Shown here: positions 19,715 to 37,709 of the stretch, in pieces
How the letters are laid out: every line of letters starts with the position of its first letter
Position numbering within the stretch: position 1 is the first letter of the stretch
Assembly: GCA_963662155.1 (NCBI GenBank)
Contig: OY759268.1
Span: forward strand, 58,320,969-58,384,968
Direction of reading: 5' to 3'
DNA: 64,000 bases
Origin: Lamellibrachia columna
Lineage: Eukaryota > Annelida > Polychaeta > Sabellida > Siboglinidae
Position numbers and translations under genes: made by a program
The notes under the pieces: model-generated
What the model was told of the DNA's origin: nothing
What the model saw: only the letters and a program-made list of their open reading frames with translations
The model's database searches: none

Positions 19715-19926
19715 AGTAGTTAGCAGAGGTTTTTGGGACCCCCTTATCGGTCCATCAAAAGATCAAAGTAAAACGACCCTAATATCGCCCACCGCTAATG
19801 AGTGCGCGCAGCCAATGAGAAAGCAGCATTAGACCTTGGAGCGCCCCCTGGCGGCGGCGGCGGCGCAGCGTGGCGCGCATGCGCGTGCCGCGCCCCTAGC
19901 GACCGGAGGAGGAACGAACAGTGACC
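19715..19926. repeat. Polinton left terminal inverted repeat, 212 bp
   Basis: It begins AGTAGTTAGCAGAGGTTTTT and is the reverse complement of 37492-37703. Comparing base by base by eye, I find no mismatch, including the GGC-trinucleotide run. Such identity implies a recent insertion or repeat homogenisation. Confidence 0.96.
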
Positions 19927-20691: not shown

Positions 20692-20692
20692 C

Positions 20693-22397: not shown

Positions 22398-23227
22398 CAG
22401 AACAGTCCGGGCTTGCGTCGACGAAAATGAAGCGTCACCGTCACTCTACCGTATTCGAATGGCACGCGTCGACCCATGTCGTTCCTTATATCCACCTCTA
22501 TCGAGGCGAAGTTCGAACGCAACAGCGGTACGTAGTGCACGTTGGTGAAACGAGCGGACACCGTGTCGCCGTTACGTCCGCTGATCGGAACGGCGCGCAA
22601 CAGAGGTGCGAGAGTGTCGCCCACATTACGCGGCTCCACGACGTCCGTGTAGATGTAGAGGGTGTCGAACCCCTGCGTCAGGTTCACCACATCGTCGGCC
22701 TCGATGTGGAAGGGGTACGACGAGTCGGGATGGCGGGTGTCGATGGGGAGGACGGGAGACGACACACCCGACTCCACCGGGCTGGCTACGGGTCCGCGGA
22801 ATCCCAACAAGGTCGCCACCGCGCTGTGGTACGGTATGGTGAACAGGGTGTTCGCCGTCATGTGTAACGTCATTTTCTGAGTGACGGTACTATAACTGAG
22901 CTGAGCCTGTGTCTCATACGTCCGCATATTGGACAGTCCCTTGTTGACGTGATACAGCAACGTAAACGGATCGTCGTAATACCCACACGGCAACTTCGAA
23001 CGTATGGACGAGTCCGTAGTATCGATCGTGTTGAGGAAGAACCAGACGTCGGTATCCGTGACGTTGTACCAGGTGTGCGGATACTGGACCTCGGCCAACC
23101 CACACTCCCACTCGCCGGTAAGATCGATGCGTTGGGGCAAGGCCGTGACGTAATGGGTCAAGGTGTTGTCGGGGTGCATCTTCATGGAAGCGTTGCTAGG
23201 CAGCGTCATGTAGAAATCAGTCGCCAT
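22397..23227 (-). CDS. mCP: Minor capsid protein (penton-type jelly roll)
   Basis: This 276-residue protein is the Polinton minor capsid protein expected at the capsid vertices. The N-terminus, with TLPSNASMKMHPDNTLTHYV then L-x-G-x-W-E-C-x-L-x-E-x-x-YPHTWYN, is the recognisable family signature. A C-terminal strand series ends in a basic HFRRRKPGLF. The ATG at 23227 overlaps the upstream membrane-protein gene by 11 bp. It is intact and of usual length. Confidence 0.88.
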   Translation of the reverse strand: MATDFYMTLPSNASMKMHPDNTLTHYVTALPQRIDLTGEWECGLAEVQYPHTWYNVTDTDVWFFLNTIDTTDSSIRSKLPCGYYDDPFTLLYHVNKGLSNMRTYETQAQLSYSTVTQKMTLHMTANTLFTIPYHSAVATLLGFRGPVASPVESGVSSPVLPIDTRHPDSSYPFHIEADDVVNLTQGFDTLYIYTDVVEPRNVGDTLAPLLRAVPISGRNGDTVSARFTNVHYVPLLRSNFASIEVDIRNDMGRRVPFEYGRVTVTLHFRRRKPGLF

Positions 23228-23531
23228 TGCGTCTCAACGTGGGATTGGGCAGTAGGTAACCCAACGAACTACTCAACAGAGCCGTCCACAGATTAGAATC
23301 GCCGCGACCTGTCGTCAGGTTGTAAATGCTGATCAGAATGACCGTGTACAGGACGACGACCTGACACAGAAACACGATCTCCTCTTTGGGACACGCGGTA
23401 CCGAAAATATGCCAGGGAGTGCTGTCTGGCTCGTTCGGTGCAGCGTCAGTACAATCCGTGCCCTGTTCCTTCTCCTCCTCCTCGTCGATGGTGGTGAGGC
23501 AGGTCGGTGGTGGTGTCGCGTCGTGTGTCAT
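23217..23531 (-). CDS. Conserved Polinton transmembrane protein
   Basis: A 104-residue protein. An acidic, disordered N-terminus (EEEEKEQ at 17-23) precedes PKEEIVFLCQVVVLYTVILI, a clear membrane segment at about residues 51-70. A second hydrophobic stretch (LWTALLSSSLGYLLP, 81-95) follows. The PKEEIVFLCQ...NLT...W..LLSS.LGYLLP.P pattern recurs in Polintons beside the minor capsid gene. Its function is unknown; a virion membrane component is a reasonable guess. It has a normal ATG at 23531. Confidence 0.8.
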   Translation of the reverse strand: MTHDATPPPTCLTTIDEEEEKEQGTDCTDAAPNEPDSTPWHIFGTACPKEEIVFLCQVVVLYTVILISIYNLTTGRGDSNLWTALLSSSLGYLLPNPTLRRNGD

Positions 23532-23561
23532 TCCTCGAATGCAGTGTCGTCATGTACGCGG

Positions 23562-24632
23562 CTAGGCTTTATAGTTGACGAGTCCCTTGGCATCGATCCA
23601 GCTGTTGTAGTAGGAGCCATAGCCGAACCATTTCACCAAAGCTTCCTTACGTTTACCAACCGTACGGCGTTTCAGTACCGCTTCAACACGGTACACTTTA
23701 TCAAAGGGTACCGTCACCTTCTGCAGCTCCAGTTCGTAGAAGGTACCCTCCAGCACTTCGCCGAGATCGTCCCGCAAGCGATACACGGGTGGGTCGGAGG
23801 GGTGAACCTCGTGTACCGTGAACACCTCTTCGCTCCAGTTCGTCTCGTAGCCCTTTTCGAACGTGCGTTTGTACTTGCTGACACGCACGCGATCCGACAA
23901 GTGCAACTTGGGCACGCCCTTACCGTCGTGACCGTACAGACGTTGCCACACCTCTTCTTGGTTCTGTGCATTCACCTGTGACGGAGCCATACCGATCATG
24001 CGGTGACGGGCATTGTTATACGATCGCATCAAGTCCGGAAGGACGTCGACGTACCGCCACGTCTGTTTTTTCGTGAAGTAGCGCCACATGCGCGTCTTCA
24101 ACGTTCGGTTGAACCGTTCCACGACGGCTGCCTTCGTCTCCGCGTTGTGCGTGGAGAAGTGATGGATGTCGTAACTCCGCAATATAGACTGAACGGATTT
24201 GTTCCGAAATTCTCTGCCGTCATCTGTCTGCAACGTCTGTGGCCAACCGTCGACGAACGTGGATTGCAGCGCTTTTACCAACGACGCCGCGGACTTGTTC
24301 TTCATGGGAACACACCAGGCCACTTTCGAGAAGACGTCGATCACCGTGAGGAGAAAGGTCATACCGTTGTTGACGCGTTTGACCTTCGACATGTCCACGA
24401 GATCGGCCTGCCACTGCTGATGCATACCACCCACGATGACTTGTCGTCTCTTGAAATGACGTCTCGCTGGTTTGTGTAAGGTGTAGGCGTCCTGTGCCGA
24501 CAACCATGCTGTGACGGCCTTCTGTGGCAGACGCGTGACGCGTCGCAAGCCAGCGACGCCGCCATAACTGCCTACCTTCGTGGGATCGAAGTAGACCTCA
24601 CGCATGGAGCGTTCTTCTCCCCTCTGAGTCAT
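23562..24632 (-). CDS. INT: Polinton integrase: DDE core plus chromodomain
   Basis: This retroviral-type integrase inserts the element with a 6-bp target duplication. Numbering from the ATG at 24632 gives a 356-residue protein. Catalytic Asp77 is in WQADLVDM, Asp137 in TDDGREF and Glu172 in VVERFNRTL, with the standard D-35-E spacing. A C-terminal chromodomain (about 314-356) reads YRVEAVLKRR...ALVKWFGYGSYYNSWI and probably targets chromatin. The in-frame codon before 24632 is TTG, so 24632 is the first possible start. The ATG at 24605, giving MREVYFDP, fits the family start as well. A zinc-binding HHCC motif is not apparent. The gene is complete. Confidence 0.94.
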   Translation of the reverse strand: MTQRGEERSMREVYFDPTKVGSYGGVAGLRRVTRLPQKAVTAWLSAQDAYTLHKPARRHFKRRQVIVGGMHQQWQADLVDMSKVKRVNNGMTFLLTVIDVFSKVAWCVPMKNKSAASLVKALQSTFVDGWPQTLQTDDGREFRNKSVQSILRSYDIHHFSTHNAETKAAVVERFNRTLKTRMWRYFTKKQTWRYVDVLPDLMRSYNNARHRMIGMAPSQVNAQNQEEVWQRLYGHDGKGVPKLHLSDRVRVSKYKRTFEKGYETNWSEEVFTVHEVHPSDPPVYRLRDDLGEVLEGTFYELELQKVTVPFDKVYRVEAVLKRRTVGKRKEALVKWFGYGSYYNSWIDAKGLVNYKA

Positions 24633-24777
24633 CAAAAGAGGTGGAGGATCGAAGTGTTGACGGAGGCGGTGACGTTGACTTCAGATTCCCACTGCTGACG
24701 AATGACGAGGAGCACGCCGACGTGTATTAGGACGCACACTATGGCACCCACAATGACAGCGGTGGAACAACAACGAT

Positions 24778-24912
24778 CTAGCGGAGTAACCATAGTCGGA
24801 ATAACAGCTGTTGTAGAAGAATGTCGGCTGCAACGTCTCCCAGCACGGTAAGTCCTTCGAACAATAGTGCAGCGACGATGGATCGGTACGTGTCCTGTGG
24901 ATCGATGAGCAT
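24778..24912 (-). CDS. Short membrane protein, diverged duplicate
   Basis: From the first ATG (24912) this encodes 44 residues, beginning MLIDPQDTYRSIVAALLFEG and then a hydrophobic helix ending LLFRLWLLR. It is a paralogue of the gene just upstream (24941-25165), which begins MSPDPQDAVYRSIVGAIF. The surrounding non-coding bases are also duplicated. An upstream TTG would lengthen it to 60 residues but is not a credible eukaryotic start. It may be a functional small membrane protein or a decaying copy. The 24633-24777 gap shows no other gene. Confidence 0.5.
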   Translation of the reverse strand: MLIDPQDTYRSIVAALLFEGLTVLGDVAADILLQQLLFRLWLLR

Positions 24913-24940
24913 GACTGCTACGGAGACGCGTCGTACCACC

Positions 24941-25165
24941 TTATACGTTCTTCCATCCAACCAATGACGACGGCGAAGCCTTGCGCGATGCGGGGGGAGG
25001 GTGGGTGGGTGGACGAGGAATGGTCCATTCGTCGAGCGATGGAGGTTCGAATAACGCCTGTTGCATAAAACTTTGGAGTATACCGTGAGCCATCATGTAA
25101 AGTCCACTGATAAATATCGCACCGACGATGGAACGGTACACGGCGTCCTGTGGATCGGGCGACAT
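24941..25165 (-). CDS. Small membrane protein, 74 residues
   Basis: It starts at the ATG at 25165 (MSPDPQDAVYRSIVGAIFIS) and has one hydrophobic segment at about residues 10-35. A proline-rich stretch (IPRPPTHPPP) follows, ending ASPSSLVGWKNV. The terminal SRKA-SPSSLVGW motif matches the C-terminus of the next upstream gene (SRKALSSLAGWDNL). This shows that a block of about 230 bp spanning one gene's end and the next gene's start was duplicated. A GTG nine bases upstream is rejected as a start. I do not recognise a function. Confidence 0.6.
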   Translation of the reverse strand: MSPDPQDAVYRSIVGAIFISGLYMMAHGILQSFMQQALFEPPSLDEWTIPRPPTHPPPASRKASPSSLVGWKNV

Positions 25166-25201
25166 GACGAACACTGTGCTACGGACACGCAGCGTACCAT
25201 C

Positions 25202-25987
25202 CTATAGGTTGTCCCAACCAGCCAATGACGACAGAGCCTTGCGTGATTCGGGGGGTGGGGTGGGCATGGTATGTTCCATTCGACGGCTCTGACGGGCGAG
25301 GGGTGTCCAACTTAGCGATCTTCGTGCACTACCTGCAGCAGCAGCAGCACGCAGAGGAGTACGTGACCGACGAGAGGGAGAGATCGACGGCTCCGGACGT
25401 ATGTAGGCTCTCCTGGAGACGTTGCCGACCAACGTCATGGGTAGGTTGATGGCACGGAGTTGTCGTGCGAAAGGCTGCCAACCCGTCGGAGCGGTCTTTC
25501 TCTTACGCAACAGATCGTTAACGAGATCCACCACGTTACTTCCGACAACCGGCGCGCCCTCGTGTATCAGTTCGCCGCGAGCGGTCCACTCGACATCTCT
25601 CTTGAGATGCTCCATCAAACGGCTGGCCTTGGCCCGCATGGTCTTGGGAACGGTGGCCAAGACGGTGGCCTCCAGTCCGCTAATAGGAGCGCGGACTGCA
25701 CCCGCCGACCCCGACTCCGACGCCACCTCCGACTCGTTCACCGTGACCACGCGTAGCGGTTCCTTGATGCGTTTATCGGCCAAGACGTTGTAACGCTGCA
25801 ACACCTGATTATACAGGGTCACCTTGGTCCAGTCGTCTAGGTCCGTTCTATCCAGGATGGTCTTCATCTCGTCATCGAGGGCTTGCACCTTCCTGCCTAA
25901 GGTGTCGGTCGCGAGTGGGGGTGGGGGTGACCGAAGCGTGTCCAACAGTCGCGGGTCCACCAAGGCCATCTTGCGTGCGTGCTCCAT
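25202..25987 (-). CDS. Conserved Polinton protein of unknown function (261 aa)
   Basis: The N-terminus has MALVDPRLLDTLRSPPPPLA, then LDDEMKTILDRTDLDDWTKV and TLYNQVLQRYNVL, a helical region. The middle has a VPKTMRAKASRLMEHLK block and the sequence WTARGELIHEGAPVVGSNVV followed by DLVNDLLRKRK. Both blocks recur in proteins of animal Polintons between the ATPase and integrase genes. The C-terminal 60 residues are Ser/Arg/Ala-rich and low in complexity. A structural or scaffolding role is inferred from context only. The ATG at 25987 lies four bases after the stop of the upstream gene. Confidence 0.75.
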   Translation of the reverse strand: MEHARKMALVDPRLLDTLRSPPPPLATDTLGRKVQALDDEMKTILDRTDLDDWTKVTLYNQVLQRYNVLADKRIKEPLRVVTVNESEVASESGSAGAVRAPISGLEATVLATVPKTMRAKASRLMEHLKRDVEWTARGELIHEGAPVVGSNVVDLVNDLLRKRKTAPTGWQPFARQLRAINLPMTLVGNVSRRAYIRPEPSISPSRRSRTPLRAAAAAGSARRSLSWTPLARQSRRMEHTMPTPPPESRKALSSLAGWDNL

Positions 25988-25991
25988 GTAT

Positions 25992-26360
25992 CTACCTTTT
26001 GTTCAGCACCTCTCGGAGCAAGGGTAGCAAGACCGAACTGGCCAACGGTGCTAGGAAGGCCGATAGGAAACCGCCGCTCTGTCCCTCACCAACCTGTGGT
26101 TGCAGCAGTAGACGTCTTCTCCTGGCAGCTGGCGTTCGTCTATTAGCCAACGCGCGTAACTTCGTCCTGTATTTATTCAATCGTTGCCTCTGTAAAGGGG
26201 ACAATGGAATGTTTTTTGTTAGTATGTTGTATGCACACTCGGCTAGTGCACACAGCAGATCGGAGTCGGCGTTGGCGATTATGGCCTTTTTAATTTTGTT
26301 GTTCTTGACTCTGGCCAGAGCCTGTATGCACACGATGTGTCTCTTCACCCGGGCAGACAT
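25992..26360 (-). CDS. Small basic conserved Polinton protein (122 aa)
   Basis: It starts at the ATG at 26360 (MSARVKRHIVCIQALARVKN). A helical block, DSDLLCALAECAYNILTKNI followed by PLSPLQRQRLNKYRTKLRAL, precedes a basic run (ARRRRLLL). A C-terminal hydrophobic GGFLSAFLAPLASSVLLPLL segment ends the protein. The 'CECAYNvL...PLsp.q..rL..yk..lr.L' block is common in Polintons, virus-like in style, with no assigned activity. The longer open frame to 26603 begins with GTG and overlaps the ATPase, so it is rejected. It lies 37 bp after the ATPase stop. Confidence 0.72.
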   Translation of the reverse strand: MSARVKRHIVCIQALARVKNNKIKKAIIANADSDLLCALAECAYNILTKNIPLSPLQRQRLNKYRTKLRALANRRTPAARRRRLLLQPQVGEGQSGGFLSAFLAPLASSVLLPLLREVLNKR

Positions 26361-26397
26361 GATGCGAATGAAGAGACTATCCACACACTCGGTCGTT

Positions 26398-27054
26398 TTA
26401 TACCTTCGGCAAGTACACGTACTGAACACCGTCGTCTGGAAAGATGGCCGTACGCAGACGCATGTCCTCGGGCGTGTCCTGTTTGAGATCGACCAACAGA
26501 TAACCGTACGGTACCGCCGTGGCGTCTTTAAACGCCGCTTGCACGAACTTGCCGCGTCCCGGATACATCTGTCGAGCCAAGGTCGCCATCTGCGATGAGT
26601 CACGTGGATTCTTGAACACCACCATGTACTGCGAATTCAGACTGATGGTGCGACTCTCCTTGTTTTTAGGGAACAGGTTCTGTACGAGATACAGCACGGA
26701 CGTGTTCCTGTGGTGACTTTTTTTAGTGAACAAGGTCGTGACCCGTTCGTCCGTTTCTGCCATGAGATCGTCTATGACGATGAGGTTCCTCGTTGTCGGA
26801 TCGAACATGGCCGCAGTCGGTAACCCTTCCTCGAATCGCACGTGACCCAATTCCGTCGTTGCGTAAGCCTCTTGCCATTCTCCGTAACACCACGTGATCT
26901 GCTGGGGAGGTGGAACGATCATCGCAGCGGCGTGACGCAACATACGCGTCACGAAAGTACTCTTGCCGCACCCCGTCGGTCCGGCGACGATGCACGTGAA
27001 GGGGTGTTTCCATCGCGCATCCATGATTGCGTGTGCAACGAATGCAGCGTGCAT
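26398..27054 (-). CDS. ATPase: FtsK/HerA-type genome packaging ATPase
   Basis: This 218-residue P-loop ATPase is predicted to pump DNA into the Polinton capsid. Walker A is GPTGCGKST at residues 25-33 and Walker B is NLIVIDDLM at 90-98, with Asp95/Asp96. A downstream KKSHHRNTSVLYLVQNLFPK segment (sensor-like Asn/Gln) and a NPRDSSQMATLARQMYPG block match the family. The length is typical of adenovirus/Polinton-type packaging ATPases, which lack extra domains. It starts at the ATG at 27054, 11 bp beyond the polymerase stop. It is intact. Confidence 0.92.
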   Translation of the reverse strand: MHAAFVAHAIMDARWKHPFTCIVAGPTGCGKSTFVTRMLRHAAAMIVPPPQQITWCYGEWQEAYATTELGHVRFEEGLPTAAMFDPTTRNLIVIDDLMAETDERVTTLFTKKSHHRNTSVLYLVQNLFPKNKESRTISLNSQYMVVFKNPRDSSQMATLARQMYPGRGKFVQAAFKDATAVPYGYLLVDLKQDTPEDMRLRTAIFPDDGVQYVYLPKV

Positions 27055-27065
27055 CGCCTTTTCTA

Positions 27066-30000
27066 CTATACGTCCACCGGACCCGTGGTCACCCCGTCCT
27101 CGTGCACCACGCGTTTGGCGTAAAAGAAGGTGAGTGCATCCCGATTCTGCACGTACGTCATGACGGTGGAGTTATGCACCCGGAAACCCCGGTTCGTACC
27201 GCCTCCGCTCCGACGGTTGGTGAGCACCTCCAGGAACGAGTCCTTGTCTATGGTGTTGTGCCGTTTGCTCAACCCTTTGGTGCTGTACTTGTCGGTGGCG
27301 CCGAAACAGTAGTACGTCTTGCTACACAACCCCACGAACCCCGCACCGGACCACTCGACCTTGAACAGACCCGGCGTCCTCTTGTCGAACGCTCTGCGTG
27401 CCTTGCAGCACGCCTCGTCGCCGACCCACGGTCTATTGGCGAGACGACAGCGCACGTAGTCGTTCCGATGGTCGTCGCAACATTCGGACGGCAGCCATTC
27501 CGACCGATGGCGGAAATAATGGGCTCGCAGTGTCGGGGTCACGAGGTCGTCGACGGACTCGGCGGCCAAGGCTAAATAGGCACTATCCGTATCCATCTCG
27601 CAGTACTCGAACAGAGGGCGCTCCACGTACCTGACGATGAAATCGTAATAGAACTGCAACATGCGCAACTTGGCGTACTGCAGAACGAAGAATCCCACGT
27701 GTACGGGTAGGGTGTACTTGACGGTCTTCTTGTTCAGTTCTATCTCGTACGCGTCGTCGACGACCATGTCGAGTTGACGGAATCGTTTATCGTTGACGAG
27801 GAGCGATGCCGCCTTCTCCGTGCAGTAGCTGACGTCACGATGTCGGTCGACGTTGGTGATGGTCTTTCCGTAGCCCGAGTTCCCCAGCAACTTCATGGTG
27901 TCCGCGATGATGGTCCTGTCTCGGTGAACGTCGCCCTCGCGTCGGGCCTTGGACACTGCATCGCCGAACCGTCGGAAACACGGAACGGGATCGTATTCGA
28001 CGACCTGGTACACGTGCAGCACCTCGAGACCGTGGTCCAGATACCATCGCAGCAGTGGCGTTGCGAGCAGTATCTTGTCGCCGCAATAACTACCCACGAG
28101 CATGCGACGCGGAGTCTTCATTATGTCGTGCTCTTCGGCGTATCGGCGCATGAACGGACCGAGATCCTCCCGTTGCATACCGATGTTCTTGAACACGGGC
28201 TGCATCTCGGCAAAGTGCGCGCGCAACGCTTCCGGTACGCGTACGTCGCACTCGATCATGCCGAACACGGTTCCGGCACGCACTCCGTTCAGGATCTGTT
28301 GTGACGTCATCGTCCATTGCACGTGTCGACGTCGGGGAAATGCTGCATCCACACACTTGCGTACGGCCGGTGTTCGTCTCATCTCCTTCCACTCGCATTC
28401 CCACAACTCGACGACCGTGACAAAGTGTCGTAGGTAGGCAGTGGTCTTTCGGGTCTCGGCGAGCAGTTGCGCCATGGGTTTCCCGTTGACGGCGTTCACC
28501 TCCTCTCGGTTGCACGAGCAACCGTGAAAGAAGCAACCTTGGAACTGATAAGCCGTCTTCGTCTCGCTGCACCATCCGTCCACCCGATGTTTGCCTATGC
28601 GCTTCTCTCGTCCGTTGATCTGATGCCGTATGGACCGTCCCGTGCGTTCGGATTCCCACGTCAACCATTCTCCGGCCATCTGTCCGTACAGCTGCGCCGA
28701 TTCGGGGCGGAAGTCCTTCTCCGCTCGTCGTCGCGTGTACCATCCCATAGGCATGTCCTGCATGAGCGACCACAGGTACAGTGCGTTCGCATCGTATCCG
28801 ACGATCGCTCGACAGGGACGAGCCGCCTCTCCGTACTCGTTCCGACGTAGCGTGGTGACCCCTGTCTCGTGATAGCGATGAAAGATGATCGAAGGCCCGC
28901 CTACAATGTTCGCTTTGACGAGGTCGTGCAGGTCTTTGTTCTTCTCGTTGAAGATGGTAAAGTAGGTCTTCTCTGGCAGGTCGTTGAACAGGTACCGCAG
29001 GGTCAGACCGGGTACGCTGATACCTTGCTTGAACATGTCTATTCCCCGTTGTCGATAGAACGCGAACTGTCTGTCGATGGCCTGTAGAAAGGGAACCACG
29101 TCCCTGTTGTTGTACCAGACGAGAAAGTCGCGCAACGTCGTCATGCCATTGACGCGCCAGGCCTCCTGACAACTGGCGTAATCCTCGTCTGAAATCCCTT
29201 CGTTCTTCAGTCGACTGAAGAAGGCCTCTTTCGGTGGAAGTGCGGTGTCGTCGAATCTCTCCAGCCTGTCCATGTACTCGTACGGGAAATGACCTTTCGT
29301 CACCTCGCATCCGTACGCTTTCAGATACTTGTCGTAGCTGAACCCGGGGGCTATGTAGTTGATCATGTCTACGAATTTCAGCTGATCCGTCGAAAGACAC
29401 ATGAAAGTGTTGTTGCGTTTGATTACGAACATTGACCCGATGCCGTCGGTCTCGACTTTCCTGTTGCCCTCCTGCTCCCTCTCGTCCGCGGCCTCGTCCT
29501 GTTCCACGTCGGTCTTTGAAGTCGTCAGGAAGTACGGTATGAGGAACTGTTTGATGGCATTGAGATCATACTTCCCCGAATTGAACCCGACGACGGGTAA
29601 CTGACGCATCCATCCATACATTTGTCCCATCAGCGTTTTGTACGGATTGGTTGCCGCTCGCCCTTTCTTCTCGCCGGCCTCCCGTGCAGCTGCGTCCCGT
29701 GCAGCCTCCTCCCGTGCGTCCCATTTCGTCACCTCTTCTGCGAGTTGTTCCAGCACATGATCGTACGAGTCTTTGATGTTGTCGTACGCGGCCTCACTCA
29801 TCGCTTGCAGGACAGTCATCATGGTGCTCACCAACTTGTTGGCGTCTCCGTCCGTGACGATGCATGTCACCTGTTCGTGTCCGGGTACGTTGGATGCCAC
29901 GCTGACGCTCAACGGGACGTGACGCGCAACCCAGTGAACCTGGGCACTGTCCTCCGGAAGGTGTTCGGTGTCGAACCAACACTCGAAGTCGAAGGTGGCT

Positions 30001-31598
30001 CGGTACGGATAGTACTGCAACGCTTCGGCCACTCGGATGTTCTCGTCTGCCAGACGTTCGAACACCGATGGAGTCGAATGGTACACGCCACCAGGATAGA
30101 CTCGGCGCACACCCCCCGTACACGTGCTCTCGTGGTTGCGTAGATGCCATGCGTCTTTCCACAACGAGTCACCGCACTTCCGACATCTGTACGAGTGACA
30201 GTACATGCGTCTATCCTGGATGTAGGAAAAATGCGTCCCGTGCAGATTGAGGTAGAGTGTGTCCGGGTACTTACATACCGAGCGACGAACGAGTTCTGCG
30301 GTCGACTTTCCACCATCCTCCTCCTCTGCCTCATCTCCATCCGGTTTTACGAGACTGTACACGCACACGTTTGTTTCGAACGTGGTCTCGACACGATAGA
30401 GGTCGTCCATCGTGACCCCGGCAAATGCTGCCATGGGTACGCCGTCTTGGGCGTACGTTGCGTACAGCGTCTCCACAGCCGGTTTCAATCGACGCCGTTC
30501 ACATCCGCGATGCAGGGCCAGACATCGAAAGAGACACAGGTTGTCATTGTACCTTTTGCTATACTGGGGCTCCGTGTCCAATGCGATGACGGCTTTGTTC
30601 CTCTTGATGTACATGGGAAGGTCGGTCATTCCTACACATCCTATCGGGTGATCGATGATGCGACTGACGAAAAATGTGACATTGGTCACGAGTTCGCACA
30701 CCCACGCCGAATCCGGTCTTTGATTGATGGCCCATTGCAAGACGTCGGTTTCGCGGATGCGTTCGAGGAACTTATCAAAGTCCTTGCTGTTGGTGATGAG
30801 ACTGGGCTCGTCCAGGTAGCGTCCACAGCAGTTGCATGAGGGATGGTAGTACTTGTATTGACCCGTGTTCTTGTTCCTCAGAACGAACCCGTAACTGAGG
30901 TTAATCTTGAACGCGTTGGTCTGTTCCTGGAACACGTTCCTCAACGACGGCTCTAGAACGGTCGTGTCCAGCGTCGTTACTCTGTAATCGTACCTGCACT
31001 GAAGAGGACCTCTCGTTACACGTGTCCGTATGGTCGACCAGTGCGCTCGTACGACATCTAACAGTTCCGGCGACAGGTTGTCGGCGAAGGGGAGTCGGAC
31101 AGGTGGGTCTATAGGGTCGGCATCGGTAACGAGTGGATGGATGGGTGTGGTGTCTTCCCTGATTGATATCTTAGGCGATGGTGGCGTCGTGTCGTCGTCG
31201 TCGGCGGTACACGCATTTCGTACGTGTCTGGTCAGGGTACGGCGTTTATTGAACGTCATTCCACATTTCGCACATGTGTACACTGTGGTCTGTTTTCTAT
31301 TACTGCTACTGCTACTGCTACGGCTACGGTTACTGCTAAGACGACATACGGACCTCACATGGTCTTGCAGATCGTCCCATATGTCGAACGTTGCATCACA
31401 TTTACAGGAATACTTGGTTCTCTTTGCCTGCTCGCTAGGTGGCACCTCCCGTGGCACCTCCCGTGGCACATCTAGTGGTGGCGCCACCGAATACGTATGT
31501 TCGATCACTGCCGGTGTCGCATGACTCGCTAGGTGGTGTTTGAGCGCTGCATAGGTGTCGAGCACCTGTCCACAGTGACGACATTGGTGTCTTTTCAT
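27066..31598 (-). CDS. POLB: Protein-primed family B DNA polymerase with N-terminal zinc fingers
   Basis: This 1510-residue polymerase should copy the linear element from its ends by protein priming. Exonuclease motifs are Asp537/Glu539 (TFDFECWFD), Asn673...Asp678 (FNSGKYD) and Tyr829...Asp833 (YNNRD). Polymerase motif A is at Asp936 (GYDANALYLWSLM), motif B at Lys1236-Gly1244 (KLLGNSGYG) and motif C at Asp1336/Asp1338 (MDTDSAY). Three C2H2/C2HC zinc fingers open the protein (first C6, C9, H22, H26); another finger-like C-x2-C...H-x4-C lies near residue 480. A Cys355 block (DNLCLFRCL) with His456 (GTHFSYI) resembles an OTU-protease arrangement. A VDGW...YQFQGCFFHGC insert (1007-1027) resembles a nuclease-like element. 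The last two readings are inference. A TATA box sits 57-63 bp upstream of the ATG. Confidence 0.94.
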   Translation of the reverse strand: MKRHQCRHCGQVLDTYAALKHHLASHATPAVIEHTYSVAPPLDVPREVPREVPPSEQAKRTKYSCKCDATFDIWDDLQDHVRSVCRLSSNRSRSSSSSSNRKQTTVYTCAKCGMTFNKRRTLTRHVRNACTADDDDTTPPSPKISIREDTTPIHPLVTDADPIDPPVRLPFADNLSPELLDVVRAHWSTIRTRVTRGPLQCRYDYRVTTLDTTVLEPSLRNVFQEQTNAFKINLSYGFVLRNKNTGQYKYYHPSCNCCGRYLDEPSLITNSKDFDKFLERIRETDVLQWAINQRPDSAWVCELVTNVTFFVSRIIDHPIGCVGMTDLPMYIKRNKAVIALDTEPQYSKRYNDNLCLFRCLALHRGCERRRLKPAVETLYATYAQDGVPMAAFAGVTMDDLYRVETTFETNVCVYSLVKPDGDEAEEEDGGKSTAELVRRSVCKYPDTLYLNLHGTHFSYIQDRRMYCHSYRCRKCGDSLWKDAWHLRNHESTCTGGVRRVYPGGVYHSTPSVFERLADENIRVAEALQYYPYRATFDFECWFDTEHLPEDSAQVHWVARHVPLSVSVASNVPGHEQVTCIVTDGDANKLVSTMMTVLQAMSEAAYDNIKDSYDHVLEQLAEEVTKWDAREEAARDAAAREAGEKKGRAATNPYKTLMGQMYGWMRQLPVVGFNSGKYDLNAIKQFLIPYFLTTSKTDVEQDEAADEREQEGNRKVETDGIGSMFVIKRNNTFMCLSTDQLKFVDMINYIAPGFSYDKYLKAYGCEVTKGHFPYEYMDRLERFDDTALPPKEAFFSRLKNEGISDEDYASCQEAWRVNGMTTLRDFLVWYNNRDVVPFLQAIDRQFAFYRQRGIDMFKQGISVPGLTLRYLFNDLPEKTYFTIFNEKNKDLHDLVKANIVGGPSIIFHRYHETGVTTLRRNEYGEAARPCRAIVGYDANALYLWSLMQDMPMGWYTRRRAEKDFRPESAQLYGQMAGEWLTWESERTGRSIRHQINGREKRIGKHRVDGWCSETKTAYQFQGCFFHGCSCNREEVNAVNGKPMAQLLAETRKTTAYLRHFVTVVELWECEWKEMRRTPAVRKCVDAAFPRRRHVQWTMTSQQILNGVRAGTVFGMIECDVRVPEALRAHFAEMQPVFKNIGMQREDLGPFMRRYAEEHDIMKTPRRMLVGSYCGDKILLATPLLRWYLDHGLEVLHVYQVVEYDPVPCFRRFGDAVSKARREGDVHRDRTIIADTMKLLGNSGYGKTITNVDRHRDVSYCTEKAASLLVNDKRFRQLDMVVDDAYEIELNKKTVKYTLPVHVGFFVLQYAKLRMLQFYYDFIVRYVERPLFEYCEMDTDSAYLALAAESVDDLVTPTLRAHYFRHRSEWLPSECCDDHRNDYVRCRLANRPWVGDEACCKARRAFDKRTPGLFKVEWSGAGFVGLCSKTYYCFGATDKYSTKGLSKRHNTIDKDSFLEVLTNRRSGGGTNRGFRVHNSTVMTYVQNRDALTFFYAKRVVHEDGVTTGPVDV

Positions 31599-31654
31599 GC
31601 TGCTCTGCTCTGCTCTACGTGTCTACAACTGAGAGAGTGCGGTTCTTAGTACAG

Positions 31655-31661
31655 TTATATA
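31655..31661 (-). promoter_or_regulatory. TATA box of the polymerase gene
   Basis: TATATAA on the minus strand, in the context CTATATAAC, 57-63 bp upstream of the polymerase ATG at 31598. The same CTATATAA core occurs before two accessory genes (34987-34993 and 35802-35808). Position and match support a core promoter; the start of transcription is not visible. Confidence 0.6.
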
Positions 31662-31742
31662 GTGGTGGTGGTGGTGGTGGTGATGGTGGTGGTGATGGTG
31701 GTGGTGGTGGTGGTGGTGGTGGTGGTGGTGGTGATGATGGTG
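31662..31742. repeat. (GGT)n microsatellite
   Basis: GGT/GAT trinucleotides directly upstream of the polymerase TATA box. The stretch 31743-32254 that follows has 'cttgtgggttt' twice (31969, 32060) and a (GA)n tract at 32195-32221. I support no gene there. Confidence 0.95.
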
Positions 31743-32254
31743 GAGGTTATTGGTGAAGGGTGTATCACCTATGGTGGTATTGGCAACTGTGTGTCCCGCT
31801 ATCCATGGCTACGGGTTATATTTCAACTCATGACAACACCACTCACAACACGTTTCGTTCATTGTAAGACGTTTTATTGCGTATATAAAGACATAGCGAT
31901 ATACATAATATATACATATACATATACACGGTTAGACCTATATAATTACTATGATGATGTTGATTACTTGTGGGTTTGTGGGAATGTTACATCCTCGCCA
32001 GTGACCCCTAGCTTACGGTCGGTTATCGACACGCCAGTGGCTAGTACAATGATTATTAACTTGTGGGTTTTTACACCGCGACAGAGGTTCCGTACAATGA
32101 TGTAATATATAGGTTGGTATGTATATTTATATATATGTATTACTATATGTCTTGCAAATACAATATGTGCGCGAATACATACATACAATACAGGCGAGAG
32201 AGAGAGAGAGCGAGAGAGAGACACTACCTACTAATATTCCGTTGCAAACGGTGC

Positions 32255-32371
32255 TTATTGAAATGCGGGGGTTGCAATCATGAAATCAACAATTATCTGT
32301 ATTAAATTATGTATTGTGCGTCTTCTCTCGTCCCTTGCTAGCACGGGTGCTTCCTCTTCCTCCCTCTCCTC
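32255..32371 (-). CDS. Exon-like cassette D (acidic, 38 aa, terminal)
   Basis: It opens directly after TTATGTAG and reads EERVREEEAPVLARDERRRT, then a hydrophobic helix (IHNLIQIIVDFMI), ending in TAA at 32255. Acidic start, [EV]AP-V, R-[DE]E-x-RR and hydrophobic end are shared with cassettes A-C upstream. There is no ATG at its head, so it makes sense only as a spliced 3'-terminal exon entered in phase 0. Coding status is inferred from the paralogy and the repeated acceptor. Confidence 0.42.
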   Translation of the reverse strand, partial: EEREEEEAPVLARDERRRTIHNLIQIIVDFMIATPAFQ

Positions 32372-32391
32372 CTACATAACAAGAAATGCGT

Positions 32392-32532
32392 CTACTGTAT
32401 TCGTATACTGATATAATGTTTTCTATTATCTTTACTAATTTCAATAATGTGGTCAGCAATGTCGTTCATTAAATCATGTAATGGACGTCTCATCTCGTCC
32501 CTTGCTGGCACCTCGTCCTCCCTCTCCTGCTC
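32392..32532 (-). CDS. Exon-like cassette C (acidic, 46 aa, terminal)
   Basis: It opens after GTTATGTAG with EQEREDEVPARDEMRRPLHD, then LMNDIADHIIEISKDN, and ends in TAG at 32392. It is closest to cassette D: the DNA encoding VPARDE and LARDE, and the acceptor, are nearly the same. It has no usable ATG at its start. As a spliced terminal exon in phase 0 it would append a 46-residue tail. Whether it is expressed is unknown. Confidence 0.42.
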   Translation of the reverse strand, partial: EQEREDEVPARDEMRRPLHDLMNDIADHIIEISKDNRKHYISIRIQ

Positions 32533-32550
32533 CTACATAACACAATAGAT

Positions 32551-32652
32551 CTACTGTTCATCGTTTGTTGATATCATGTATTCAAGTATCATGAACACTA
32601 ATTGTCGGCATGCACGTCTACGCAGTTCAATCGGTGACACAGGTACGTCATC
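32551..32652 (-). CDS. Exon-like cassette B (33 aa, terminal)
   Basis: It opens after GTTCTGTAG with DDVPVSPIELRRRACRQLVF, then MILEYMISTNDEQ, and ends in TAG at 32551. It shares the acidic-VPV-...-ELRR-hydrophobic layout with its neighbours but is shorter and the most diverged. Same phase-0 entry. Low to moderate confidence as a coding exon. Confidence 0.38.
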   Translation of the reverse strand, partial: DDVPVSPIELRRRACRQLVFMILEYMISTNDEQ

Positions 32653-32744
32653 CTACAGAACAAATTTAAGGATACCAATATATCACTCCATATTACGTCA
32701 TACACCAACTACTTCTAACTAGGTTATGTTTACTACTGCTACTA

Positions 32745-32852
32745 CTAATAATAATACTCTGTTGACGACGTCATATACGCGGAGACCAATACTTCAGATA
32801 GCTCCCGAATGCTGGCTGGGAGGACGGGTGCCTCGTCGTCATACTCTTCACT
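32745..32852 (-). CDS. Exon-like cassette A (35 aa, terminal)
   Basis: It opens after GTTATGTAG with SEEYDDEAPVLPASIRELSE and ends STEYYY before TAG at 32745. EAPVL is shared with cassette D. The acceptor could alternatively be the AG two bases later, which would change phase. It lies about 100 bp beyond the stop of the acidic 276-residue frame. Its coding role depends on splicing. Confidence 0.4.
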   Translation of the reverse strand, partial: SEEYDDEAPVLPASIRELSEVLVSAYMTSSTEYYY

Positions 32853-32954
32853 CTACATAACACCAATGTTAATATTACTAATAATACAATTATTACGTTT
32901 ACTACTAATTACCACCTATTTAAACACCAACAACAACATCTACTACTATGCCTA

Positions 32955-33384
32955 CTACCTAAGCGGTCGCGTTATTGCCCGCGGTTGACGGATGGCACAT
33001 CGCACGTATCGCTTTATGCGTTCTTGATACTCGGCGGAGAGTACCGTGCCGGCCAGTGCCCGACACACGTCGACCGTCACCTCTTCCACCGTGGCAGGGG
33101 CGGTTCTCCGCCACAGTTGAGTAATCATACGTGCGAGGTGCAGTTGCATTTTGTGGAAACACACCTTGTCCGTCTTGTCCGCGTCTTCTTCTTCTTCTTC
33201 GGTGTCGGCGGTGGCGTCGTCGTCGTCGTCCTCTTCGTGGGCATGCGCCGTCGACGTCAACGGCTGCGGCTCCGGCTCCGGCTTTGCGTGTGTGATCGTA
33301 CGTTGATCGGGGATGTCCACCTGTTCGCCGTCGCGGGTCAATACGACGGTTTTATCAGGGAATACATAGAGGGTCGTCAGGGAT

Positions 33385-33422
<38 letters not shown>

Positions 33423-33785
33423 CTGCTTGCGTTGGACGAGTGGTGGCGACGCGGGACTAAATTCGAAGTCCGCATCGTCGGCTTTCGCGGGCTCGGGGGA
33501 TGAGGCAATCGCATCCTCATCCTCACTGTAGTAATGGGGAGGGGTGTTTATAATGCACGCGTCTTCCACGGACTCAGAGTCCGATTCGATGGCCCACGGT
33601 GGTAGCAACTCCTCTTGGTTTGGCGGTGGCGAGTCGGCATTGGTCAGGGGTGATGGTGGGTAGAACGAGGTTGTCATCGAGGATGTCTTCAGCCTCTTCG
33701 CCGCTTGTGTCACCTTATCCTCGGTGTCGTGGTACAGCGCCGCCAGGTCGCGTTTATACGCGTTCTGGAGTTGCTCCAGGCCCAT
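32955..33785 (-). CDS. Acidic accessory protein (276 aa), unknown function
   Basis: The protein opens MGLEQLQNAYKRDLAALYHD. Low-complexity acidic tracts follow, including a run of 12 Asp at about 121-132 encoded by a (GTC)n-type repeat on the plus strand, and a second Glu/Asp tract near 187-202. The C-terminal 75 residues, KMQLHLARMITQLWRRTAP then VEEVTVDVCRALAGTVLSAE, look folded and helical. I do not recognise the family. The ATG at 33785 comes immediately after TTCAATAG, so the frame could begin at that ATG or be joined there by splicing. The start overlaps the neighbouring frame by 32 bp in another phase. Confidence 0.6.
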
Positions 33786-34380
33786 CTATTGAACAGAACG
33801 CATCGGTTACATTACGTGGGTTATAGTATTCCGCGTCGCCCTGCATATCGTTATTGTCGTATGTTTCGTACATACTCTTTCTAACCAATTCGGTCACTCG
33901 GTTACGCCATTTCATGGTCCCGCACGTTGCGATGACATCTATAGATAGCCACCGCAAGACGTGCATGACCATGCTGGTCGATGGCACGTAACGATCCTTA
34001 TCATCGTTTAGATTCATTATGCGTTCAACCTCGTCACTGGCATATCGCACACTGGCGGCCTCTAGCGCCTTATAGAATATGTTTTCATTGGTCATGGCTT
34101 CGGATCTATCACGTATCCTATCTAGACCGCTAACAGTAGCCTCCATATCATCGCTACTGCTAATGCTATAATGTGACGACGCACTGTTCTCCCCCTGGTC
34201 GTCATCTGATATTACAATCATTGGTGGCGGCGAACCGCTGTCCACCGAGGAGGAGAACAGTATTTCCGCACTGTTAGCCTGTAACAATTGCATTACCTTA
34301 GCGCGTCCATCGCCGTCGATGATGTCATCGCCGCTTCCGGTTGCCACTGCCGTGGCTGCCGCAGCGACGATCGAGCCAGC
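33754..34380 (-). CDS. Accessory ORF/exon, Ser/Asp-rich N-terminus, unknown function
   Basis: The frame is open from just after TTGACAG (34380, QAGSIVAAAA-type start in phase 0) to TGA at 33754, about 208 codons. The first in-frame ATG is at 34293 and would give 179 residues. The sequence has a SGSPPPMIVISDDDQGENSA stretch resembling SUMO-interaction or acidic-tail motifs, and a helical C-terminal part (MVMHVLRWLSIDVIATCGTM, then KWRNRVTELVRKSMYETYD). The GTG at 34347 is not a credible start. It lies 16 bp after the stop of the NADAR-OB gene, suggesting a second 3' module reached by splicing or a separate gene. Function unknown. Confidence 0.5.
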   Translation of the reverse strand, partial: AGSIVAAAATAVATGSGDDIIDGDGRAKVMQLLQANSAEILFSSSVDSGSPPPMIVISDDDQGENSASSHYSISSSDDMEATVSGLDRIRDRSEAMTNENIFYKALEAASVRYASDEVERIMNLNDDKDRYVPSTSMVMHVLRWLSIDVIATCGTMKWRNRVTELVRKSMYETYDNNDMQGDAEYYNPRNVTDAFCSIDGPGATPERV

Positions 34381-34396
34381 CTGTCAACGGAATGGT

Positions 34397-35605
34397 TCAC
34401 ACTGTGACTACTTCCATGTTGGCCACCGTGTAATTTACGTACGGTCCTGCCATACGTTTACGAATGGTCACCATGACTCGGGCCCCCCGCAGCAGGTCCA
34501 GTGCTGCATACCGCTCGGCATCTGACGTCATGTTTATGTAATCGTTCCCCGTGTATCCTAGCAACTGGACAGCCTTGTCATTAAATATGGTTCCCCACAC
34601 TTCGCTGCCGATGGCGTCTTGTAGGAGGACACGCATGGCGAACCGATACACTACACCCCGCTGCCATCGATGAATGGGACACACAAAGCCGTTGTTTTCG
34701 GGAATGACCCGTTTGTTGCACTGCTGACATGATGGATAAACGATATATTTCTCTTGAACGGCGATTTGTACTATGGTTAACGGTCGTCTTATTATATAGG
34801 TACCGTTACCTACCTGCTTCTCGAGTTGGCTCAGAGTGGTCATCATCTCAGCGTCCTGGTCGCTGGTTGTCTTGGTGACGGTGGTGGCGGCCATTTCTAC
34901 GTCTCTGCTGGTGCTGTTCGTGAAGGGTTTCGAAGTCGTCTGTGAAGCGGAGAGCGGTTGTATGCCTCGATCACTCCGAGTCGGGCTTATATAGCCCTCT
35001 CCCCGACTGTGGCGCGCTTTCTTATCGTCGCCCCTTGGTCGAGCGCGTGACGCCGATGCTGATGCTGCATGTCTGGTATCTGCGTCCGACCCTTGGTCGA
35101 TCACGTGATGCGACCGCTGGATGTCTGCCATCTGGCTGTACTCTGGAGTCTGATGTAATCGTATGGCCTCGCGTACTAGCATGGTTATATGACCTAGCAT
35201 GTTCTGACCGGCTTGACCACTGTATGTAAGTGCACCCCAGTATCCTTCCCGACTCTTGACCCATTCCTGCAACTGGGAATGCCCAGTGTCCAACAGTCGT
35301 TTACGTAGGGTTGGATCGCGATATTTAACGGTCACTAACCCATACATTAATGCATATCGTTGTCTCGTCCATTCTGCGCGTAACATTTCCTTTTCTCGTA
35401 TGTACTTGCTGAGCTGTTTCGCCTGTAGACCCGTGCGCGTGGCCAGCATCCTTTGCGCCGTCTGCATGTCGTCATGATGCATGCACTTCCGCCATTGATA
35501 CGCGCTTTCGACACTGGTGAATTCTCTATTACAGGCGTGTATCCTGCAGGCGTAGAAATTGGACAGGAACTGTTTACCACCTTTAAACCGTATAGGTTGG
35601 TTCAT
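34397..35605 (-). CDS. NADAR (YbiA-like) domain fused to an RPA1 C-terminal-like zinc OB fold
   Basis: This is a 402-residue frame from the ATG at 35605. Residues 5-149 form a NADAR/YbiA domain: FLSNFY (13-18), SVESAYQ (31-37), AK at 62-63, W79, TG at 107-108 and WGALTYSGQAGQNMLG (123-138). Members act on ADP-ribose-linked or N-glycosidic bonds; some bacterial ones reverse guanine ADP-ribosylation of DNA. Residues 150-280 form a low-complexity linker. Residues 287-402 look like the C-terminal OB fold of RPA1: zinc ligands C293, C296, C309 and H312, then YRFAMRVLLQDAIGSEVWGT and IFNDKAVQLLGYTGNDY, an ssDNA-binding fold. A phase-0 splice donor lies at Q264, and an internal TATA box and ATG (M238, 34894) could yield the OB part alone. 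An early, host-countering role is inferred. Confidence 0.8.
   Translation of the reverse strand: MNQPIRFKGGKQFLSNFYACRIHACNREFTSVESAYQWRKCMHHDDMQTAQRMLATRTGLQAKQLSKYIREKEMLRAEWTRQRYALMYGLVTVKYRDPTLRKRLLDTGHSQLQEWVKSREGYWGALTYSGQAGQNMLGHITMLVREAIRLHQTPEYSQMADIQRSHHVIDQGSDADTRHAASASASRARPRGDDKKARHSRGEGYISPTRSDRGIQPLSASQTTSKPFTNSTSRDVEMAATTVTKTTSDQDAEMMTTLSQLEKQVGNGTYIIRRPLTIVQIAVQEKYIVYPSCQQCNKRVIPENNGFVCPIHRWQRGVVYRFAMRVLLQDAIGSEVWGTIFNDKAVQLLGYTGNDYINMTSDAERYAALDLLRGARVMVTIRKRMAGPYVNYTVANMEVVTV
34808..34816 (-). other. Candidate 5' splice site CAG|GTAGGT in phase 0
   Basis: On the minus strand, CAG (codon for Q264) ends at 34814 and GTAGGT begins at 34813. It matches the donor consensus closely and lies exactly between codons. 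The acceptors downstream at 34380, 33785, 32852, 32652, 32532 and 32371 open frames in the same phase. If unused, translation continues into the OB fold. Confidence 0.5.
34987..34993 (-). promoter_or_regulatory. Internal TATA box inside the NADAR-OB gene
   Basis: TATATAA on the minus strand, in GGCTATATAAGCC, about 93-99 bp upstream of an ATG at 34894 with a good start context (GAAATGG). That spacing equals that of the plus-strand gene (TATA 35802, ATG 35895). It could drive a transcript whose first coding exon is the 27 codons up to the donor at 34813, or the OB domain alone. Confidence 0.45.
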
Positions 35606-35801
35606 GGTGACTTTATGACGTTAACATGTACAGTTACTGTCTTAACTACGCGTCGTTCTAGCACTGTAGAGTACGTAACCCCCTGCTTTTTTCCTTGCGT
35701 GATGGATGCCCGGTGTTGGTAGGCTGACAGTTGCCGGCCGCTTATCTGTTTTCTGATTAGTGTGGTATTGTTCCGAGGCTGATGTAAGTTCTAGCATGCT
35801 C

Positions 35802-35808
35802 TATATAA
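35802..35808 (+). promoter_or_regulatory. TATA box of the plus-strand accessory gene
   Basis: TATATAA in CTCTATATAAGACG, 87-93 bp upstream of the ATG at 35895. It lies in the 289-bp space between two divergent genes (35606-35894), so this is probably a bidirectional promoter region. Confidence 0.6.
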
Positions 35809-35894
35809 GACGTCTGGGTTCGTCGTGTCGTCATACCAACCGCCATTGTCGTCGACACCGTTAGTAGTTCTTCGATTCCACACACACACGCACA

Positions 35895-36712
35895 ATGTCT
35901 GTATTCGCCTTGCGCGATTGCATGGAGTTCGTCGTCGTCGCGGAACTCCTGCAGTCGGTACCTCTATTGCAGGGTATTGTGTGAGTATTTCTTTTATTTA
36001 TTTATTTATTTATTTCTATTTTGTTACTTTCATAGCTCTCCATAGCTCATACCTGTTTTAACTTATGCCTTTGCATATTGTGACTCTGATTGTGTCCTTT
36101 ACTTATTACAGCATTCCATGTTTCAACTGGGCGTGCGTGCTCATAGAGTTGATGGAGGACGCCCCCCTACGCCGGAGCTGCCAGGCGACCGTCCTGTTTC
36201 GGGAGGCGCTCTACGACGCCGGTCTCCTGTCGGCCTTCGGTGTACATGCCAGCCGTTGGCGCCACGTCATGGCTGCCATTGCGTTTCACTACGGCGATGG
36301 ATTTCGCAATACCTCGACCGCCTCCACAGAGTCGTGGGATGACGACTTGGCCGCCATCGACGCCGCCGTCACCGACGCTCACGCAGCCGACGAGGACTTC
36401 GACGACGCCGGAGAGTGGGACGACGACATAGCCGCCATAGACACCGCCACCGACGCCCACGAGGTCGAGGTGATGGCCTTCCGGGCCCATATGACCAAAT
36501 GGGAGCGGGTGATGCATGAGTTGGTCCTCATCCACGCCCCATTGTCCGCAACCGTTTTCCGTCACATTCACCTCGGTCCCGTCCATCTCCCATCACTCTT
36601 CCGGCGTCGTCGATCTGTATCGTTACGCATTGCGTTGGCGCGCAAGTTGACCACTCGCGCCATCCGACGGTCGTTGCTGACGGCATTCAACACCGTTCCA
36701 ACATGCCCTTGA
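35895..36712 (+). CDS. Spliced accessory gene, acidic repeat protein (228 aa), unknown function
   Basis: Exon 1 is 35895-35980 (ATG after CACACACGCACA, ends at GTGAGT). Exon 2 is 36112-36712 (after TTATTACAG). The 131-nt T-rich intron interrupts in phase 2, and the combined coding length is 687 nt with no internal stop. Without splicing, exon 1 would stop at once. The product has a short hydrophobic helix at the start and a middle with two copies of a WDDDxAAID motif (SWDDDLAAIDAAV and EWDDDIAAIDTAT). It ends in a basic tail (FRRRRSVSLRIALARKLTTR). No family is recognised. Its TATA box, divergent orientation and place by the terminus suggest a regulatory or early gene, but this is inference. 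Confidence 0.72.
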
Positions 36713-36781
36713 CTTTATTATAACTACCGTTGTTGTTGGCGGTATTAAACACCGTTCCAACATGAACTTGACTTTATTATA

Positions 36782-36782
<1 letters not shown>

Positions 36783-36854
<72 letters not shown>
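36783..36854. repeat. (ACT)n microsatellite
   Basis: About 24 uninterrupted ACT trinucleotides within the Polinton right arm. Confidence 0.97.
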
Positions 36855-37379
36855 GCTTTTATATTTGTACTTGTTCTTTTTTCGTTTTATTAAATTTGCA
36901 TCACCTTATATTCTCGTCTTGTATTGCGTTCTTGTTTCAACTGCGTGTTGGCACATTATATTATATTATATTTTATGTCCATTTTCGTCCTGCTACATTT
37001 TATTTAACGAACGGTCCGATTTCCCTCGTCCAGCGGTTATATTGTAGCCATGCATGTCGACTATTTATTCCCTTTTACACATTCGTCTTATCTTTATCGG
37101 TTTTAATTTTATCACGTATTATGTCCACTACATATAACAGGCTATAACATGCAGCGGTCCCACATCAATGTCGTCACTGCAACTTAGTTGCTGTTTATCG
37201 CTTATTAGCTCAGCTAACTTGCTACATTGTACAGATTAGCGTCCTTTGATCTCGCGCTATGGCTCACAGCTGGATAAACGCTTCGGCTTACAGTTAACTC
37301 CAGTCGTTCGGACGTCCAGTTGTCATTAGCTAACCACTCGGACTGGTCACTCCGTCGAGGTCACGGTCACGTGTTGTCG

Positions 37380-37441
37380 TGGGTGGGTGGGTGGGTGGGT
37401 GGGTGGGTGGGTGGGTGGGTGGGTGGGTGGTGGTGGGTGGG
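37380..37441. repeat. (GGGT)n microsatellite
   Basis: About 15 GGGT units with one interruption (GGTGGTGGGT) near the end, 50 bp inside the right terminal inverted repeat. A G-rich strand like this may form quadruplexes. Confidence 0.95.
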
Positions 37442-37491
37442 TGATATTACGTGTATTTTCTTTGTTCCTATGTCCATCATAGATGACCACC

Positions 37492-37703
37492 GGTCACTGT
37501 TCGTTCCTCCTCCGGTCGCTAGGGGCGCGGCACGCGCATGCGCGCCACGCTGCGCCGCCGCCGCCGCCAGGGGGCGCTCCAAGGTCTAATGCTGCTTTCT
37601 CATTGGCTGCGCGCACTCATTAGCGGTGGGCGATATTAGGGTCGTTTTACTTTGATCTTTTGATGGACCGATAAGGGGGTCCCAAAAACCTCTGCTAACT
37701 ACT
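37492..37703. repeat. Polinton right terminal inverted repeat, 212 bp
   Basis: Reverse complement of 19715-19926, ending CCTCTGCTAACTACT. I see no mismatch between the two ends. Confidence 0.96.
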
Positions 37704-37709
37704 TTTAGT
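37704..37709. repeat. Polinton target site duplication, right copy (TTTAGT)
   Basis: Identical to 19709-19714 and directly adjoining the right terminal repeat. Confidence 0.95.

Follow-up and report, generated by a model that had tools for sequence, protein, structure and literature searches.

The Polinton and its gene content

The window, that is, the whole stretch of 64,000 nucleotides of Lamellibrachia columna DNA that was analysed, contains an intact Polinton of 17,989 bp, defined by perfect 212-bp terminal inverted repeats (TIRs), a tttagt duplication and AGTAGT...ACTACT ends, with the 6-bp target site duplication (TSD) present on both sides. The AGT.../...ACT end motif matches that given for vertebrate Mavericks in the available text of PMC8097293. 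The element and its recognisable parts are the following:

19715..37703, no strand: Polinton element, 17,989 bp (TIRs, ends and TSD)
19709..19714, no strand: left TSD, tttagt (read in sequence)
19715..19926, plus strand: left TIR, 212 nt (inverted-repeat comparison)
20212..20691, minus strand: candidate adenovirus-type protease (Peptidase_C5 E 0.047, below cut-off)
23562..24635, minus strand: integrase, rve and chromodomain (Pfam rve 46.8 bits, Chromo 31.7 bits, both above cut-off)
26398..27054, minus strand: candidate packaging ATPase (weak IVa2/A32 matches, below cut-off)
27066..31598, minus strand: candidate protein-primed PolB, 1510 aa (Pfam DNA_pol_B_2 E 3.5e-4, below cut-off)
34397..35605, minus strand: merged NADAR–OB open frame, 402 codons (ORF and Pfam; 93 of 100 fetched copies open throughout)
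37492..37703, minus strand: right TIR, 212 nt, 100% complementary to the left one (inverted-repeat comparison)
37704..37709, no strand: right TSD, tttagt (read in sequence)

No solved polymerase was matched when the PDB was searched with the candidate PolB, and no capsid genes of the element were identified by Pfam or PHROGs. A viral contig database was searched with the 402-aa protein, an OB profile and PolB, none of which found a relative there, and with a NADAR profile, which found five loci at 29–34% identity.

Several further observations concern this element. The candidate PolB (27066–31598, minus strand) has N-terminal C2H2 fingers (Pfam, below cut-off), and one stretch of it, DNLCLFRCLALH, is in our view reminiscent of OTU-type proteases. 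Downstream of the OB gene, window positions 32955–33785 (minus strand) encode an acidic protein with a long Asp run. On the plus strand, within 35802–36100, an ATG at 35896 has TATATAAG 94 nt upstream (hand count) and is followed by a donor-like GTGAGT near 35982 and then by a T-rich stretch; this is likely a spliced gene whose upstream region is common with that of the NADAR gene. Just beyond the right end of the Polinton, the repeat of a minisatellite at 37894–39414 keeps both strands open over long distances (CHVSCRWKGTPCSHVHVHVH and relatives); the resulting ORFs are repeats and not genes.

NADAR and zinc OB domains in a single frame

The merged frame joins a NADAR domain (Pfam E 2.7e-16) to a zinc OB fold like DBD-C of RPA1 (Pfam E 5.7e-12). 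Its parts and one motif upstream of it, all on the minus strand, are given here in the order of reading:

35799..35807, minus strand: TATATAGAG, 202 nt upstream of the NADAR ATG (motif read)
35141..35605, minus strand: NADAR gene/domain, residues 1–155 (Pfam, PDB profile, residue alignment, fold match)
34895..35140, minus strand: 'linker', residues 156–237, presumed promoter and 5' leader of the OB gene (TATA, conservation)
35010..35026, minus strand: GATAAGAAAGCGCGCCA block upstream of the TATA box (alignment of split and fused loci)
34987..34993, minus strand: TATATAA box, 99 nt upstream of the OB ATG (read in sequence; shuffles)
34397..34894, minus strand: OB (SSB-like) gene from its own ATG (M238), 165 aa (split homologues; context GAAATGG)
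34400..34822, minus strand: RPA1 DBD-C-like OB core, residues 262–402 (Pfam Rep_fac-A_C above cut-off, PDB profile, structure)

Residues E33, K40, W79, R83, E114, E120 and W123 of the NADAR domain align with E43, K50, W89, R93, E125, D130 and W133 of the P. nicotianae enzyme, the alignment having an offset of 2 between the structure chain index and the paper numbering; E120 at D130 is a substitution, as is K67 at P. nicotianae R79. The roles of the P. nicotianae residues in ADP-ribose binding and catalysis are described in the available text of PMC11543638. Apart from one E114Q, the aligned ADP-ribose residues are unvaried in 98 loci of the same genome, and among 21 family members E33, W79, R83, E114 and W123 are invariant and K40 nearly so. 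Since E125, which is E114 here, marks the YbiA subfamily, the Polinton NADAR looks active and YbiA-like. It also matches phrog_1017 (E 1e-31). The NADAR hydrolases of P. nicotianae (8bau) and E. coli (YbiA, 2b3w) have the same fold and the same ADP-ribose residues, including E114 = E125, but the Polinton protein is a distant, predicted hydrolase (20–22% in the fold match) that adjoins an SSB gene and is merged with it in one family.

According to the available texts, tested NADAR enzymes remove ADP-ribose from guanine in ssDNA and RNA (PMC11543638, PMC10789625, PMC11833690), and the targets proposed for viral NADARs are soluble ADP-ribose signals or macromolecular ADP-ribosylation (PMC9503650). 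By analogy, the Polinton NADAR may act on guanine-linked ADP-ribose or on soluble ADP-ribose signals. Guanine-ADP-ribosylating proteins are described in some invertebrates (pierisin in butterflies), and pierisin has a counterpart in shellfish.

The profile match of the OB part includes a zinc ribbon placed between the first strands; its ligands (C293, C296, C309 and H312) are unvaried in 98 fused loci, and the start at M238 lies in the context GAAATGG, which we take to be strong by the usual rule. A low-confidence structure model of the 165-aa protein was matched to OB folds that include RPA1 chains, these only up to their residues 597–606; in this model, which ends with the last strand (residues 152–164), the C-terminal helix of RPA trimerisation is absent. 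A zinc ribbon inside the OB fold is common to RPA1 DBD-C, Teb1 OB-C, archaeal RPA and, by prediction, the Polinton OB. The ligands are however C3H in the Polinton and C4 in eukaryotic RPA1 (archaeal RPAs having either C4 or C3H, according to the available text of PMC8329085), and the Polinton OB is a single small protein lacking the other OB folds of RPA1 as well as its trimerisation helix. It is best read as the element's SSB.

The initial annotation had read a single 402-codon frame inside a Polinton, with a YbiA/NADAR-type N-terminus and a C-terminal zinc OB fold like that of RPA1. These points are borne out by one open frame from 35605 to 34397 (minus strand), by a 17,989-bp element with TIRs, TSD and integrase, by Pfam, PDB profile and fold match for the NADAR part and by Pfam and the zinc ligands for the OB part. 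Residues 1–150 matched the NADAR fold, and residues 287–402 an OB fold, but the latter with a low-confidence model.

Copies of the frame were sought in the same 880-Mb assembly by a protein search in which 103 of 1923 candidates were scored. It returned 104 rows, 99 of them spanning residues 1–402 and 95 of these stop-free. Among 100 fused loci that were fetched, 93 are open from ATG to stop, four have one stop each (residues 28, 71, 103 and 314), L088 has an 11-nt insertion near codon 25 (after codon 22–25), L087 carries several indels and L089 is truncated. The damage falls in NADAR in five of these seven loci, in OB in two and in the linker in none (1.4 expected); an in-frame 9-nt deletion at codon 240 is common to 14 fetched loci. 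Because a protein search favours open frames, a frame-blind DNA search was added, the best 40 of whose 618 candidates are all full length, 38 being stop-free; comparison by eye found all 40 already in the protein-search list. The median pairwise divergence of the fused copies is 1.6%. A frame due to chance or assembly error was rejected, as about 100 copies carry it.

Selection was counted on 98 fused loci (L087 and L089 dropped, the homologous columns of L088 kept), with an omega-like ratio scored against the gene's own mutation spectrum; the comparison of linker and leader drops L087, L088 and L089 and covers 97 copies. OB residues 262–402 are under purifying selection and form the most constrained part (omega-like 0.30, p 3e-5), whereas for NADAR the evidence of purifying selection is only suggestive (0.67, p 0.07). 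The linker gives 0.61 (p 0.055), and residues 238–261 give 2.79 on 15 variants. No stop occurs among the 53 linker variants (2.5 expected), nor any indel in the 97 copies, compared with one indel event in the 95 nt of the 5' leader; in 20 copies the 400-nt 5' flank has six indel events and the linker none. Substitution density per site is 0.215 in the linker, 0.189 in the leader, 0.138 in NADAR and 0.113 in OB. Taken together, this hints weakly at retention of the joined frame itself, with sampling and promoter constraint as confounding factors.

Separate genes and promoter-like DNA in related families

A search of the same genome with a split OB protein placed all 150 scored OB matches (1205 candidates) in frames of 178–296 aa, too short to hold NADAR and OB together. 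Thirty-two split loci were read in DNA, 12 of them the best by score and 20 chosen for variety; as L118 lies within L111, 31 are distinct. A full NADAR match stands upstream of OB in 28 of the 31. The upstream NADAR is in two pieces in L133, and it is degenerate in L130 and L136, where OB and its TATA box are intact, so OB can persist without NADAR. In the 27 split loci with a full NADAR and the OB ATG, the NADAR stop lies 124–221 nt before that ATG, with all three frames relative to OB (0, 1 and 2) represented.

Database relatives are mostly separate proteins as well, with NADARs of about 150–198 aa and OB proteins of about 156–158 aa that start with MAAQ or MASQ; several contigs, taken as identical where their lengths are equal, apparently carry both. 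The NADAR-only and OB-only database searches had length limits barring 402-aa proteins; their results establish the existence of split forms but have no bearing on the rarity of fused ones. A full-length search gave six clusters, one of them (P0001) with both Pfam domains, and on this ground a widespread NADAR–OB fusion was rejected. Across relatives, the single frame is conserved in the window's clade only; the split loci that were read are arranged otherwise. Assembly frameshifts as the origin of the split relatives were also rejected, because NADAR ends and OB starts are found repeatedly, in many clusters, and because the split state occurs in chromosome-scale contigs of the same genome.

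The split loci also cast light on the DNA between the two domains. TATATAA lies 88–100 nt upstream of the OB ATG in all 30 distinct split loci having that ATG (L113 is without it), and 97 of the 98 fused loci keep the box as TATATAAG. When the linker was shuffled by dinucleotides, TATATAA fell 60–130 nt upstream of the ATG in 2 of 5000 shuffles; between the box and M238 there is no other ATG. When 16 split loci are aligned with the fused one, a long conserved DNA block is seen to end in the TATATAA box; in the 17 columns of the GATAAGAAAGCGCGCCA block the fused copy and 15 of the 16 split loci agree, the remaining one having one substitution. Near the conserved box the split alignment has indels of 1 to 4 nt that would break any frame, and the box region translates as YINP in some proteins and as LYKP or VYKP in others, which fits a single DNA motif read in different frames. 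Similar TATA boxes stand at two other genes of the element, namely TATATAAC 63 nt upstream of the candidate PolB start and the box 94 nt upstream of the plus-strand ATG at 35896, while several of its other ORFs lack a TATA in the 250 nt before them. The fused linker is the same region as the promoter-like spacer of the split loci.

A tree of the OB domain was built from 46 rows (7 fused loci, 23 split loci and 16 selected database clusters), with a midpoint root and a bootstrap that was not yet stable. The fused rows come together in a single group (support 100/100), nested in a group of 26 rows (97/96) that otherwise consists of 19 split rows. With any root outside the 26-row group, the joining happened once and is derived. 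Given the split genes of related families and this tree, sequence comparison makes the co-occurrence of NADAR and SSB ancestral and shared, and their in-frame joining derived in one clade.

A proposed merger of a gene pair across a promoter

The reading that we favour, with a probability of roughly 0.7, is that tandem genes for a NADAR hydrolase and an SSB, the OB gene having its own promoter, were merged in frame once. The Polinton would carry two adjacent genes on the same strand, one for a YbiA-type NADAR ADP-ribosyl hydrolase and the other, with its own TATA promoter and ATG, for a stand-alone SSB of the RPA1 DBD-C type; in the ancestor of one family the intergenic stop would have been lost, so that a single frame crosses the promoter of the second gene. 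Probably the window's family still makes the OB protein alone, from M238, and possibly a joined read-through protein as well, from the upstream promoter. We infer from sequence that both genes are transcribed and translated, and likewise all their activities. The OB protein would coat the strand displaced in protein-primed replication. SSBs of protein-primed replicons, of the phage phi29/Bam35 type, coat strands displaced in this way and have the same expected role, although they presumably belong to a different protein family, the Polinton OB being an RPA1-type fold. NADAR, for its part, would strip guanine-linked ADP-ribose off viral DNA or RNA or clear soluble ADP-ribose signals, an activity that would counter a host ADP-ribosyltransferase response.

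The initial annotation had gone further, proposing that the fusion targets an ADP-ribose eraser to ssDNA. This proposal is weakened because NADAR and OB are separate in related families and the linker carries the presumed TATA promoter of OB. In its full form it makes the joined protein the functional product, with OB holding NADAR on ssDNA intermediates where guanine ADP-ribose would be removed. Most copies do have an open frame, namely 93 of the 100 loci fetched and 38 of the top 40 DNA-search matches, and the linker has no stops or indels and is spared in all seven disrupted loci, 1.4 hits being expected; moreover, in the texts available, the NADARs tested take guanine-linked ADP-ribose in ssDNA as a substrate (PMC10789625, PMC11543638), and on RNA a NADAR that binds nucleic acid was the more active (PMC11833690). 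Nevertheless, the 100 loci were drawn from a protein search favouring open frames, related families of the same genome are split in all three relative frames, the linker contains promoter-like DNA, and its substitution density equals that of the leader and is above those of both domains. We think that this explanation is unlikely. A variant in which one Polinton family uses the promoter and leader of its SSB gene as a coding linker too, nested promoters giving both a free SSB for replication and a NADAR–SSB that patrols the element's ssDNA and removes guanine ADP-ribose added by a host DNA ADP-ribosyltransferase, seems to us quite improbable; if true, it would amount to a dual-use promoter/linker and a targeted DNA de-ADP-ribosylase.

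The open frame might also be a neutral accident of a young family in which both proteins are made separately only. A median divergence of 1.6% leaves little time to break a frame, and the linker evolves as fast as the leader, but the mild constraint on the linker (no stops, no indels, omega-like 0.61) speaks against it. This explanation, which departs from the merger of tandem genes only by excluding the joined product, has real weight, even if on balance we doubt it. Very improbable, finally, is a spliced mRNA that joins NADAR to the downstream acidic gene and skips OB, on the pattern of Lamellibrachia satsuma P0006, which runs from NADAR through the first OB residues into a region like the window ORF 33785–32955. 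A CAG/GTAGGTAA at codon 265 would suit it; P0006, however, is an annotated gene model, and no part of the frame is more constrained than the OB core.

As regards the merger of tandem genes, the closest precedents in mobile DNA are NADARs of retroelements, found at the N-terminus of an Ectocarpus Gypsy Pol and in the ORF1 of an oyster Tx1 LINE (PMC12477816, available text). These were likewise recruited by a eukaryotic mobile element, but here the carrier is a Polinton, which resembles a DNA virus and in which the NADAR adjoins an SSB of the replication type. The available text of PMC9503650 records NADARs in NCLDVs, phages and RNA viruses, which, like that of the Polinton, are viral ADP-ribose-processing enzymes, thought to counter host NAD/ADP-ribose systems; those of DNA viruses are typically stand-alone, and no Polinton, adintovirus or Maverick is named in it. 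Our literature search, mostly without subscription papers, found no paper with both NADAR and Polinton and, in the texts available, no Polinton RPA-type SSB. NADAR and RPA terms are absent from the Polinton and virus papers PMC11071308, PMC10328495 and PMC11071296, and a co-mention of Polinton and ADP-ribose holds the two topics apart in the part of the text that was checked. The claim of the initial annotation that the fusion is undescribed stands insofar as this search found no description, although NADAR in transposable elements is already in print (PMC12477816, available text). We regard as provisionally new the pairing, in a Polinton, of NADAR and RPA-type SSB genes that a single successful family has merged in frame across a presumed promoter.

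The role of animal NADARs is stated as open in the available text of PMC11125620. A many-copy NADAR beside an SSB points to guanine ADP-ribosylation or ADP-ribose signals as possible weapons of marine invertebrate hosts against DNA parasites; the two proteins offer a testable pair. Besides, the locus would show how a gene fusion can begin, with a stop lost and a frame reading through the promoter of the next gene, the same bases still carrying both promoter and coding use. As a separate observation, the same genome holds hundreds of Polinton copies in several coexisting families (1205 and 1923 first-look candidates), which is a very heavy load.
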